Assembly (NCBI GenBank): GCA_023252235.1
Contig: JAHEXH010000004.1
Span: 1 to 52,816 of the forward strand
Length of the DNA: 52,816 bases
DNA from: Nitrosotalea sp.
GTDB lineage: Archaea > Thermoproteota > Nitrososphaeria > Nitrososphaerales > Nitrosopumilaceae
Reading direction: 5' to 3'
The notes below the pieces were generated by a model that did no database searches, was not told the origin of the DNA, and saw only the letters and a program-made list of their open reading frames with translations. A program made the position numbers and the translations under genes. This document shows positions 19,355-52,816 of the stretch, piece after piece; position 1 is the stretch's first letter; the number at the start of each line of letters is the position of its first letter.

Positions 19355-20269
19355 CTAGAGCTTGAGAGATTCTTTCAAGCCCTTGTATCTATTTCTGATT
19401 GTTACTTCGGTTACTCCAGCAGCTTGGGCAACATCTTTTTGTGTTTTATTTTCACCATTCATGACACATGATAGGTATAATGCAGCAGCTGCAAGTCCCA
19501 TCGGATCCTTCCCTGCAGAAATTTCAATTTCTGCAGCATCTTTTAGAATCTGCAGAGCTCTTCTTTTTGTTTTCTCACTCAAGCCTGCTTTACTTGCAAT
19601 TCTTGCAACACATTTTATCGGATCAACAACTGGCATTTTCAAATCAAGCTCTCGTAACAAAAGTCTGTAACATCTTGCAACATCCTTTCGTTTTATGTTG
19701 ATTCCATTTGCAACGTCAGTAAGTGTTCTTGGAGTTTCAGTATCCCTACATGCCGCATACAATGCAGCAGCTACAAGTCCTGGAATTGATCTACCTCTTA
19801 CAAGGCCTTTGTCAAGTGCCTTTCTGTAAATGTAAGCAGTCTTTTCAATTACTGCATCAGATAATGCAAGCTTGTCTTTTAATCTGTCAAGCTCACTGAA
19901 AGCCTGTCTAAAGTTTCTATCTACTGGCTCATGAACTTGACTTCTACTATCCCAAGTCCTCAATCTCTCAATTGTACTTTTCATGGATGCAGAAAGTGGT
20001 TTTCCGGATGCATCTTTGTCAGCAGGGCCAATTATTGTTGCAAGTCCCATATCATGCATTGCAAGTGAAGTAGGAGTTCCAGTTCTACTTCGATCTTCAT
20101 GTTCTTCTTTAGAAAATGATCTCCATTCAGGACCGGATTCTTCTACACGCTCAGTAAGTACAAAACCACAACCTCCGCAAAACATTTCTCCTGTAGTGTT
20201 ATCGGTTACCATTGGACCTTTTCCACAACGAGGACAGCGTCCACCACCACCAAAAGATTCGCGAGCCAT
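19355..20269 (-). CDS. tfb: Transcription initiation factor TFB
   Basis: An archaeal TFIIB homologue of about 304 residues that bridges TBP on the promoter and RNA polymerase. The N-terminal zinc ribbon has CPRCGKG and CGGCG (about residues 12-32). The B-reader/linker region carries WRSF near 47. Two cyclin repeats follow (about 105-190 and 200-300), the second ending in the HTH-like VTEVTIRNRYKGL. I start at ATG 20269 (MARESFGGGG), because an in-frame ATG at 20299 would add a hydrophobic stretch not seen in TFBs and lies at the TATA-like sequence. Thaumarchaea often have several TFBs; this is one. Confidence 0.93.
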   Translation of the reverse strand: MARESFGGGGRCPRCGKGPMVTDNTTGEMFCGGCGFVLTERVEESGPEWRSFSKEEHEDRSRTGTPTSLAMHDMGLATIIGPADKDASGKPLSASMKSTIERLRTWDSRSQVHEPVDRNFRQAFSELDRLKDKLALSDAVIEKTAYIYRKALDKGLVRGRSIPGLVAAALYAACRDTETPRTLTDVANGINIKRKDVARCYRLLLRELDLKMPVVDPIKCVARIASKAGLSEKTKRRALQILKDAAEIEISAGKDPMGLAAAALYLSCVMNGENKTQKDVAQAAGVTEVTIRNRYKGLKESLKL

Positions 20270-20666
20270 ATAATATCTTATAAGAATTTCGGTTAACATA
20301 GATAAAAAGGTTTAACTATGAGGAGGAATTGTATAATTTATTAAAATTTAATTAGAATTTTATGGAAATTATAATATTTGTACTAATAATATATGAATAT
20401 TAGATTTTATGTATTGTATTCTTTTCAAAACAATTTATTTTTTATCAATGACTGTTCTGAATTTTGTTTAGTTGTTTCCTCTCATATGACGTTTTAATTT
20501 ATTTCAAAAATTACTACAAAATTATTTTTGAAAAAAATTACTACAAAATTATTTTTGAAAAAAATTACTACAAAATTATTTTTGAAAAAAATTACTACAA
20601 AATTATTTTAGCAGTCTGAAGCAAAACCTTAAATACATTTCTTTTGAAGAATCCGCATTAAATAAA
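20270..20666. other. Long AT-rich intergenic region upstream of tfb
   Basis: About 400 bp between the divergent tfb and zinc-finger microprotein genes. It holds the tfb promoter (TATA-like sequence just before 20299), an AT-rich stretch without frames, the four 27-bp tandem repeats (20510-20609), and a TATA-like TTAAATAC near 20629 serving the microprotein. Confidence 0.5.
20510..20609. repeat. Four tandem 27-bp AT-rich repeats
   Basis: Copies of a 27-bp unit beginning ATTACTACAAAATTATTT start at 20510, 20537, 20564 and 20591; the last is slightly shortened. They are non-coding, lie about 60 bp before the zinc-finger microprotein gene and 210 bp from the tfb start. They could be a strain-variable spacer or a binding platform. 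Confidence 0.92.
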
Positions 20667-20777
20667 ATGGAACAATGTCCACTTTGTTGTGAATCACAGG
20701 CGTCTAACCAAGCACTGGCGATTCACCTAAAGAAAATCCATCCACAGAGAAATACTGCAATTCAGATAATGCAATAA
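20667..20777 (+). CDS. C2H2 zinc-finger microprotein (36 residues)
   Basis: A short open frame ATG 20667 to TAA 20777. The protein reads MEQCPLCCESQASNQALAIH and then LKKIHPQRNTAIQIMQ. It forms one classical C2H2 finger: C-x2-C (C4, C7), the hydrophobic core residue near the helix, and H-x4-H (H20, H25). A TATA-like TTAAATAC near 20629 lies about 37 bp upstream of the ATG, fitting a leaderless or short-leader transcript. Archaeal single-finger proteins of this size are known as DNA- or protein-binding factors. It stands alone between tfb and cdvB. Confidence 0.72.
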   Translation: MEQCPLCCESQASNQALAIHLKKIHPQRNTAIQIMQ

Positions 20778-20863: not shown

Positions 20864-20909
20864 GTATGCTGAATTAAATGGGAGGTTTTGTCAGCTAAAT
20901 TTAGCATAC
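20864..20909. promoter_or_regulatory. cdvB upstream element: palindrome and inverted second half-site
   Basis: The perfect palindrome GCTAAATTTAGC occupies 20894-20905, 69 bp before the cdvB ATG at 20963. Its extension GTATGCTAAATTTAGC (minus strand, 20909-20894) is repeated in inverted orientation as GTATGCTGAATTAAAT at 20864-20879. A TATA-like ATTAAAAA at 20934-20941 is about 27 bp before the ATG. The palindrome therefore sits about 40 bp upstream of the TATA box. The same palindrome at the same distance precedes the second cdvB gene. Confidence 0.7.
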
Positions 20910-20962
20910 TGTGAACCGGATTTCACACCTGAAATTAAAAATCAACTTTTTTAGTGGTAACC

Positions 20963-21598
20963 ATGACAACATTTGCAAACAACTGGCAAAAGCCACAAAC
21001 ACCAAGCATTGGTGAAAAATTTAATGATGTAATAAAGCCAAAGGGTGCGTTAAAACCAAGACTTGAGACTGGCATAAAAAGACTACAGACTCAAATTGGA
21101 AAACTTGATGGAATGATTACAAAGCTAAAACAAAGAGATGAAAAACTATTCAAAAGAATTGTAGTTGCAACACAAAATCATGATATTGCTACAAGTAAGG
21201 TTTTATCAAAAGAATTATCTGAAGTTAGAAAAGTAACAAAGCTTTTAGGAAATGCTAGAATTGCTCTAGAACAGATTGAGCTTAGACTTAGCACATTCCA
21301 CGACCTAGGAGACACCGTGGTAACCATCATGCCAACAATAGGCCTGATGAAGAACCTAAGATCCTCGCTTATTAGATTCATGCCAGAAGCTGACCGTGAG
21401 CTAACTGGAATGACTGAGATGCTTGGTGGTCTTATGACAGATACATTCCACAGTGGTGACTTTGGAATTGACTCAGAGGCTACAAGTGAAGAATCAGAAA
21501 AGATTCTTCAAGAAGCTTCAGCAGTCGCAGAGGCAGCAATCAACGACAAACTGCCATCCATGCCTGCAAGTCAATCTTCCTCAGCCCGTTACGTCTAG
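20963..21598 (+). CDS. cdvB: CdvB, ESCRT-III-like cell-division protein
   Basis: A protein of about 211 residues of the archaeal ESCRT-III (CdvB) family that forms constricting filaments during division. It has the basic N-terminal helix region with the thaumarchaeal signature KPKGALKPRLE (about 27-37), then long charged helices (about 38-130), a linker, and an acidic C-terminal helix ending SSSARYV. I use ATG 20963 (MTTFANNWQKP); the GTG at 20954 would add three residues only. It closely matches the partial paralogue at 52616. The stop overlaps the convergent MFS gene by 4 bp. Confidence 0.92.
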   Translation: MTTFANNWQKPQTPSIGEKFNDVIKPKGALKPRLETGIKRLQTQIGKLDGMITKLKQRDEKLFKRIVVATQNHDIATSKVLSKELSEVRKVTKLLGNARIALEQIELRLSTFHDLGDTVVTIMPTIGLMKNLRSSLIRFMPEADRELTGMTEMLGGLMTDTFHSGDFGIDSEATSEESEKILQEASAVAEAAINDKLPSMPASQSSSARYV

Positions 21599-50999: not shown

Positions 51000-51759
51000 A
51001 GTATACTTTGTAGGATGTGGTCCTGGTGACCCAGAATTAATTACAGTAAAGGCCAAGAAACTAATTCAAAAAGCAGATGTAGTAGTCTACTCTGGTTCAC
51101 TTATTCCGCTAGAAATTATCAAACTGTGTAAGAAAGCACAATTACATGATGCCGCAAAATTAGTAAGAGAAGACATCTTTAAAATTCTAAAAGATAATGC
51201 ACTCAAAGGAAAACTTGTTGTTAGATTACATGATGGAGATCCAAGCATTTACGGAGCAATAAGGGAGCAAACAGATAATCTCAAAAAAGAAGGAGTAGCC
51301 TATGAAGTAGTTCCTGGAATAACATCCTTTTTGGCTTCAGCTGCTGCACTTGGATGTGAACTTACATTACCGGGTGTCACTCAAACAATTATTGTAACAA
51401 GGGCTGAATCTAGAACTAAAGTACCAAAACAAGAACAAATATCAGAACTTGCAAAACACAAAGCCACTTTAATTTTCTATCTTAGTATCCATTTAATCCC
51501 AAACATTGTAAAAGAAGCAATCAAGGGAGGTTATCCAAAATCAACACCTGTTGGAGTAGTTTATCGAGCAAGCTGGAAGGATGAAAAAATAATCATGGGG
51601 ACTCTACAGGATATTGCAAAAAAAATAAGAGATGAAAAAATAACAAGAACTGCAATCATAATAATCGGAGATGTTGTTAATCCGAAATCCTATGAATATT
51701 CAAAATTATATGATAAAACATTCACTCATGGGTATAGAAAAGCTCAAGTTAAATCATAA
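50992..51759 (+). CDS. cbiF: Cobalt-precorrin-4 C11-methyltransferase CbiF
   Basis: A 255-residue tetrapyrrole methyltransferase acting at C11. Motifs are GCGPGDPELITVKA (about 8-21), YSGSLIP, RLHDGDPSIYGAI (about 80-92) and VPGITSFLA; the HDGDPSIYGA segment distinguishes C11 enzymes. The GTG start at 50992 overlaps cbiL. It overlaps the convergent racemase-like gene by 6 bp. Confidence 0.93.
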   Translation: MHKVYFVGCGPGDPELITVKAKKLIQKADVVVYSGSLIPLEIIKLCKKAQLHDAAKLVREDIFKILKDNALKGKLVVRLHDGDPSIYGAIREQTDNLKKEGVAYEVVPGITSFLASAAALGCELTLPGVTQTIIVTRAESRTKVPKQEQISELAKHKATLIFYLSIHLIPNIVKEAIKGGYPKSTPVGVVYRASWKDEKIIMGTLQDIAKKIRDEKITRTAIIIIGDVVNPKSYEYSKLYDKTFTHGYRKAQVKS

Positions 51760-52509
51760 TGAATTGACTTTATTCTTAATTCCAATTTTTAACAACTGTT
51801 CATGAAAAGTCTTGACATTGCCTGATGCATAAATTTTAAGTATACTTTTTTTTGATTTTTTATGTTTTAATATTTTTGAAACTTGTTGTACCACTGAATT
51901 TGCTGGATCTAGAAATAATACATTAGGAAATAATTCCTTTAAAATTGGTAAAAGAAATGGAAGGTGAGTACTTGATAGTGTAAATACATCAATATTTTTT
52001 TCTAAATATGGAGAAATAATTTTTTTAATAATCTTTTTTGATATTTGTCTTTGAGAAATGAATTTTCCAGATTCAACAAGATCAACAAGTGGAGTAGCAT
52101 TAATTTTTGTAATTCGAATTTTGGAAGAAATATTTTTGTTAATATAATTATCAAGAGTTTTACTTTCTACAACAGATTTTGTTGCAAGTATTCCAATTTG
52201 TCCAGATTTTGTTTTAAATGAAGCCTCCTTTAGTGGGGGGAATACTCCAATGATTGTGTTCTTTTTTTCTATATCAAGTAAAAGCGATGGAGTGTTTGAA
52301 CCAACTACAATAACATCGGGGTTAAATTTTTCTTGTAATTTTGAGATTGTCGATTTTATTATTTTGCCTAACTGATGTACAGTCTTGGTACCATAAGGGT
52401 AGTTTACTTGATCTGCAAAATAGATAATTTCTGCAGTGACTTTTTTTCGTAGTGGCTTTATCACTGACAAAGAACCAAGGCCTGAATCAAAGACAATTAT
52501 CCTTGGCAT
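51754..52509 (-). CDS. Glutamate-racemase homologue lacking both catalytic cysteines
   Basis: A 251-residue protein of the Asp/Glu racemase family with MurI-like features: FDSGLGSLSV (D8, S9) and NYPYGTK (36-42). The two catalytic motifs are changed: VGSNTPS (69-75) has Ser71 where MurI has Cys in ACNT, and LSSTHLP (178-184) has Ser180 where MurI has Cys in GCTHYP. Codons are TCA and AGT, so this is not a sequencing ambiguity of one base. A racemase needing two cysteines should be inactive. Thaumarchaea lack peptidoglycan. It may have another catalytic or binding role. Confidence 0.85.
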   Translation of the reverse strand: MPRIIVFDSGLGSLSVIKPLRKKVTAEIIYFADQVNYPYGTKTVHQLGKIIKSTISKLQEKFNPDVIVVGSNTPSLLLDIEKKNTIIGVFPPLKEASFKTKSGQIGILATKSVVESKTLDNYINKNISSKIRITKINATPLVDLVESGKFISQRQISKKIIKKIISPYLEKNIDVFTLSSTHLPFLLPILKELFPNVLFLDPANSVVQQVSKILKHKKSKKSILKIYASGNVKTFHEQLLKIGIKNKVNSL

Positions 52510-52546
52510 GATCTGGAAATAATAAAGTCTGATTTACATTTTGTGA

Positions 52547-52558
52547 GCTAAATTTAGC
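52547..52558. promoter_or_regulatory. Second copy of the cdvB upstream palindrome
   Basis: GCTAAATTTAGC, identical to 20894-20905, starts exactly 69 bp before the ATG of the cdvB paralogue at 52616. The following bases (CTAGTGT) resemble ATACTGT in the other copy. Further downstream both regions share an ATTAA-[A/G]-AA-x-CAACTTTT block near the expected TATA/start region. Confidence 0.7.
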
Positions 52559-52615
52559 CTAGTGTTGAGGAATGTATACACCTTCCATTAAGAAGCAACT
52601 TTTGGACTACCCCGC

Positions 52616-52816
52616 ATGACCGGCTTCGATAAGACCTGGACTCGACCGGAGTCTGTAGGTATATCAGAAAAATTACGTGAAACTGTAAAACCACAAGGTG
52701 CACTCAAACCTAGGATAGAGAGCGCCGTGAACAAATTACAGGGTCAAATATCGAAGATGGATTCTATGTTGGGCAAGCTGAGAGAAAGAGATGCTCAGTT
52801 GTTCAAGAGAATCGTA
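52616..52816 (+). CDS. CdvB-like ESCRT-III protein (partial, runs off right edge)
   Basis: Sixty-seven codons are in the window, from ATG 52616. The protein begins MTGFDKTWTRPE and contains ETVKPQGALKPRIE and KLRERDAQLFKRIV, matching the first CdvB (VIKPKGALKPRLE, KLKQRDEKLFKRIV). It is therefore a second CdvB paralogue of the ESCRT-III division machinery. The rest lies outside the window. Its upstream palindrome matches that of the other cdvB at the same spacing. Confidence 0.92.
   Translation, partial: MTGFDKTWTRPESVGISEKLRETVKPQGALKPRIESAVNKLQGQISKMDSMLGKLRERDAQLFKRIV

Follow-up and report, generated by a model that had tools for sequence, protein, structure and literature searches.

The palindrome GCTAAATTTAGC, which occurs twice in the window (the whole stretch of 52,816 nucleotides from Nitrosotalea sp. 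analyzed here), is one part of a 56-bp composite promoter conserved before two genes, cdvB1 and cdvB2. The original prediction had read it as a cell-division regulatory site for ESCRT-III genes, and this reading was strongly supported by the frequency of the site and by its conservation at cdv genes, with two corrections: the composite promoter is the unit, and it belongs to cdvB1 and cdvB2 only. From the sequence comparisons described below, we regard it as fairly probable that the site serves as the operator within a dedicated promoter, through which a dimeric protein would co-regulate cdvB1 and cdvB2 in the Nitrosotalea/Nitrosarchaeum/Nitrosopumilus family.

The two genes are both cdvB relatives by sequence comparison, and their loci are 31 kb apart. 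The first, cdvB1 (20963-21598, + strand), belongs to the ESCRT-III/Snf7 family, its product giving a Snf7/ESCRT-III match just under the Pfam cut-off, and is probably the counterpart of Nmar_0029. In the case of cdvB2, the 5' part (52616-52816, +) is present before the gene runs off the window, and the probable counterpart is Nmar_0061. As had been predicted, the copies of GCTAAATTTAGC at 20894-20905 and 52547-52558 both start 69 bp before the cdvB ATG (20963 and 52616, respectively), and no third copy was found when the window was scanned at 0 or 1 mismatch. At 2 mismatches, two sites were found in the window, which is the chance level. A divergent Asp/Glu racemase-like gene (51754-52509, −), itself below the Pfam cut-off, starts 38 bp from the cdvB2 palindrome, so this copy could act in both directions. 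The racemase-like gene apparently occupies the same place opposite cdvB2 in several relatives, and the palindrome may therefore belong to a promoter that works in both directions.

As a first-order Markov model gave an expectation of 0.006 copies of GCTAAATTTAGC per window, and the two window copies were the only exact ones in the 713 kb available from the source genome (54% complete), a chance repeat was ruled out. Elsewhere in these 713 kb, one copy with a single mismatch was found (L003). Across 28 Nitrosotalea genomes, 32 exact palindromes were detected, while the reversed control gave none. According to the cdvB gene coordinates, 30 of these 32 sit 69–71 bp 5' of cdvB1 or cdvB2, and the other two (L112 and L172) resemble coding DNA. 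Thus, random frequency in the genome, which the original prediction had named as the outcome that would speak against the site, was not observed. Moreover, the longer exact TGTTAGCTAAATTTA was located at cdvB1 or cdvB2 in all 22 sites found among 36 genomes, and a relative with GC-rich DNA (G133, L009) retains the motif unaltered.

The anatomy of the 56-bp unit was derived from the cdvB1 and cdvB2 upstream sequences of many genera. It begins with TTTGTTAGCTAAATTTA (element 1), continues with a related element 2 two helical turns on, and ends with the TATA box ATTAA, which lies 40 bp from the palindrome start and is followed by the ATG approximately 29 bp further. In the cdvB1 promoter of the window, element 1 (TTTGTCAGCTAAATTTAGC, 20887-20905, +) holds the palindrome, element 2 (20910-20927, +) is a dyad of the form TGTGAA-N6-TTCACA in a direct-repeat register 21 bp after element 1, and the TATA box ATTAAAAA (20934-20941, +) keeps the same distances to the palindrome start (40 bp) and to the ATG (29 bp). 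The corresponding parts of the cdvB2 promoter are element 1 TTTGTGAGCTAAATTTAGC (52540-52558, +), element 2 TGTTGAGGAATGTATACA (52563-52580, +), and a TATA box core ATTAA (52587-52591, +). The similar palindrome flank and the shared block near the TATA region, both pointed out in the original prediction, are real and belong to this conserved promoter. Element 1 has dyad symmetry (p about 0.003), and its likeness to element 2 is that of a direct repeat with an offset of 21 bp (p<0.002 for cdvB1; pooled p 0.036).

Element 1 was found in 108 of the 121 cdvB1/cdvB2 promoters checked in the family. The palindrome position was 68–70 bp before the ATG in 104 of these 108, and the TATA box stood at exactly +40 in 101, a fixed position relative to TATA and start as expected of an operator. 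Because the TATA box is approximately 29 bp before the ATG, the mRNA would be leaderless or nearly leaderless. The same TATA placement puts the element upstream of the transcript, and a role at the RNA level is therefore unlikely. Within the genus Nitrosotalea, pairwise identity rises from approximately 0.3, the background level seen upstream of -90, to 0.87–0.98 at about -77, and remains high down to the TATA region. For cdvB2, the block at -70 showed a family-wide identity of 0.78, equal to the conservation at the gene start. Conservation across species with such sharp boundaries is likewise expected of an operator. The inverted half copy predicted at 20864-20879 (GTATGCTGAATTAAAT, +) does exist, 12 of its 16 bases being the reverse complement of 20894-20909, but its identity within the genus is at background (approximately 0.3), and this imperfect copy would at most be a feature of a close subclade.

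Perfect symmetry of the site appears dispensable, since only 24 of the 48 Nitrosotalea promoters tested carry the perfect palindrome. Outside the Nitrosotalea-like genera, the palindrome is often imperfect; in genomes that we provisionally label Nitrosopumilus-like (as with Nitrososphaera-like and the other labels given to numbered genera), the site reads TTTGTTAGCTAAATTTAGTC or TTAGTTAGTAAAATTTAATG. The perfect palindrome is thus the Nitrosotalea-type version of a partly asymmetric site.

The distribution of the element was determined using a sequence-only profile, built from 59 promoters and run over whole genomes. In a scan of 50 genomes, nearly every family genome gave one or two strong matches, located at cdvB1 and/or cdvB2, and all other matches were at E >= 1e-3 or weaker, barring a few partial matches at the cdvB1 promoters themselves. 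In a wider draw, a match at E <= 1e-6 was obtained in 111 of the 121 family genomes, which represent 21 of the 22 genera, with a maximum of three per genome, only some of these matches being individually assigned to genes. A strong match was absent from genus g8 and several g2 genomes, and a comparison of upstream sequences showed that element 1 is absent at cdvB1 of g2. In the related family of Nitrososphaera-like genomes, the cdvB2 ortholog is preceded by a shortened form, TTAGCTAAGCTTATGGTTTACCGGATTACACACCCGCAATTAATA, and the whole-genome profile scan found no element in the more distant families sampled. Such a non-random frequency, together with a location before the target genes, is what an operator should show. 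Weak profile matches at positions 16-49 or 21-49 (L187-L191) had resembled other promoters; those examined appear to be coding or unrelated DNA and were set aside. No cdvB homologs were found in viral contigs.

A scan upstream of the cdv genes, as the original prediction had proposed, upheld conservation before cdvB1 and cdvB2 but did not extend to the rest of the set: whole-genome scans detected no full copy of it at either cdvA or cdvC, and a role as an element general to cell division was rejected on this ground. In most genera, the other cdvB paralogs are also without the element and carry other conserved promoters. For its part, cdvA owns a different, deeply conserved promoter, AATCTTACyAAAACTrGAAAcCTTgTTAACACTTTGyyGrTTATA, which in Nitrosotalea is preceded by TTAGCTAAAA, approximately 50 bp before the cdvA TATA.

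Considering these features, a mechanism can be proposed. A dimeric DNA-binding protein would most likely occupy element 1 (TTTGTTAGCTAAATTTA, with the dyad-symmetric core CTAAATTTAG), and a second copy of the same protein would probably sit on element 2, which follows after two helical turns and faces the same side of the DNA. These tandem sites lie directly upstream of BRE/TATA, with the palindrome start a constant 40 bp from the TATA box, and the bound protein, as an activator or a repressor, would control the recruitment of TBP/TFB to the leaderless start. Two division proteins could thereby be switched together, presumably at division. What the comparisons show is the sequence, its spacing, its conservation and its confinement to cdvB1 and cdvB2; protein binding, activation as against repression, and cell-cycle timing are inferred from the DNA. 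No regulator gene was found whose own promoter holds the complete element.

A second conserved box was observed at the third and fourth cdvB paralogs. This box, hereafter box II, is the palindrome GTNAC-N4-GTNAC, located at about -67 to -85 and usually accompanied by an extra GTNAC 11 bp upstream. It was present in 21 of 47 cdvB3/cdvB4-type promoters vs 0.09 expected, and a search of 44 whole genomes with the triple GTNAC form returned mostly cdvB-family genes. In Nitrosotalea, box II lies at -66 to -69 before cdvB4 in all but one readable promoter, the exception having it at -29 with an uncertain start codon. Box II before cdvB3/cdvB4-type genes occurs in many lineages of the class. In g7 (Nitrosopumilus-like) and g3, cdvB3 has an element-1-like site such as TTCTGTTAGTGTAATTTTGTATACTGTGGATCA approximately 57 bp before the ATG, replacing box II.

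The gene divergent from cdvB4 encodes a TrmB-family protein, in which the winged-helix domain PF01978 is above the cut-off (E 6.8e-17); Pfam matched only this HTH domain. A close ortholog is present in most genomes of the class searched. In the main cdv cluster, the TrmB-family gene is followed, in the opposite orientation, by cdvB4, a small gene, and cdvC (MIT and AAA domains); in deeper lineages the TrmB-family gene is divergent from a main cdvB, and in two Nitrososphaeraceae-like genomes it is directly divergent from cdvC. The small uncharacterized gene between cdvB4 and cdvC has a weak EzrA match, below the cut-off. As box II lies between the TrmB-family gene and the cdv cluster in 20 of 30 loci vs 0.08 in shuffles, counts that come from loci related by descent and are not independent events, this protein is the best candidate regulator for box II and the best cdv regulator candidate found here.

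The same TrmB-family protein could also bind the cdvB1/cdvB2 site, so that one regulator would serve four cdvB genes through two operator forms. This is a more specific version of the operator explanation and is compatible with it, but we consider it rather unlikely. The class-wide conservation of the TrmB-family gene beside a cdv gene, with box II between them, is consistent with such a reading, and three further likenesses point the same way: in 15 of 18 family loci, the core of element 1, AGCTAAATT, recurs in the upstream region of the TrmB-family gene; element 2 is similar to box II but for a spacer widened by 2 bp (GTNA-N8-TNAC vs GTNA-N6-TNAC); and the element-1-like site of g7 cdvB3 takes a place similar to that of the box II it stands in for. 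However, element 1 is without the GTNAC half-sites of box II, and the AGCTAAATT match was spotted post hoc among family promoters that are not independent. In its widest form, one autoregulated TrmB-family protein would control all Nitrososphaeria ESCRT-III genes, acting on cdvB3 and the cdvB4-type genes through the GTNAC box and on cdvB1 and cdvB2 through the TTTGTTAGCTAAATTTA tandem site; this proposal is tentative and likewise rather unlikely.

Elements 1 and 2 could instead be upstream activating sequences of a strong constitutive promoter, raising the basal transcription of the genes for two abundant ESCRT-III proteins irrespective of cell cycle or growth condition. The fixed spacing directly upstream of BRE/TATA would also suit contact with a general activator. 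However, a general element would be expected before many genes, and this one was observed before only two per genome, which makes a constitutive promoter improbable.

A zinc-finger microprotein (MEQCPLCCESQASNQALAIHLKKIHPQRNTAIQIMQ, 36 aa, single C2H2), encoded directly upstream of cdvB1 (20667-20777, +), was considered as the regulator or a cofactor. Many genera keep it at this position before cdvB1; its amino-acid sequence is conserved, and close relatives differ in it mainly by synonymous changes. However, its tie to cdvB1 is one of adjacency, and it was undetected in most g7, g9, and g12 genomes examined, where cdvB2 keeps element 1. As its distribution mismatches that of the element, it was rejected as the regulator, and even a part in the regulation seems very unlikely. 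Close by on the upstream side of the zinc-finger gene and cdvB1, a TFB (TFIIB-like) transcription factor gene (19355-20299, −) is transcribed away from both.

Since cdvB1 and cdvB2 are paralogs (about 50-58% identical), their promoters were inherited with the duplicated genes, so part of the likeness is descent and the sequences are not independent; that the likeness is inherited and non-functional is nevertheless barely credible, because identity in the DNA immediately upstream is no higher than background, whereas the element hardly varies within the genus and is conserved over the family, which argues that selection maintains it.

The operator reading was compared with known archaeal systems. 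In Sulfolobales, aCcr1 is an RHH repressor of cdvA, with targets that include cdvA, cran1, segAB, and others (PMC12796447, PMC7617429). Like the present site, the aCcr1 box acts in cis at the promoter of an archaeal ESCRT/Cdv division gene, but in their targets the two differ: those of aCcr1 include cdvA, whereas cdvB1 and cdvB2 are the only genes with the present site. The full element was not seen before cdvA in the whole-genome scans, although the Nitrosotalea cdvA upstream DNA does contain TTAGCTAAAA. The RHH proteins CdrS and SegB also represent known archaeal division-gene regulation (PMC12284271). SegB sites are 13-bp palindromes, TCTAGA-S-TCTAGA, and the chromosome of S. solfataricus was reported to have 46 of them, most lying within genes (PMC12284271). 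They resemble the present site in their palindromic form and in being used upstream of genes as well, in their case the cassette of SegB itself, where one is centered at -59 (PMC12284271), but differ in sequence and in number, with 46 mostly intragenic sites vs two promoter sites here; by inspection, TCTAGA-S-TCTAGA is absent from the aligned cdvB1/cdvB2 promoters. The candidate at the cdv cluster is a member of the TrmB family (PF01978; TrmB and TrmBL2 structures 3qph and 5bpd), in which structures have been solved for TrmB, described as a global regulator, and for TrmBL2; the papers searched gave no link of the family to division. At the cdv cluster, the site beside the TrmB-family gene is box II and not the reported palindrome. 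No description of a thaumarchaeal cdvB promoter element or of a TrmB–cdv link was found in the open-licence literature searched.

Ammonia-oxidizing archaea divide with an ESCRT-III system. Control of the ordered cell cycle of TACK archaea has been called unclear in a review (PMC7617429). A family-wide two-gene operator, along with box II and the candidate regulator gene linked to it, would open division control to binding and reporter experiments. Moreover, the four cdvB paralogs would fall into two co-regulated pairs, which predicts the subunits that act together. As the strictly conserved cdvB1/cdvB2 promoter, a putative switch, was found essentially nowhere else in ammonia-oxidizing archaeal genomes, division control in these abundant organisms becomes directly testable. 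If the one-regulator proposal is true, a TrmB-family protein would be the master division regulator of ammonia-oxidizing archaea, undescribed in the literature searched.
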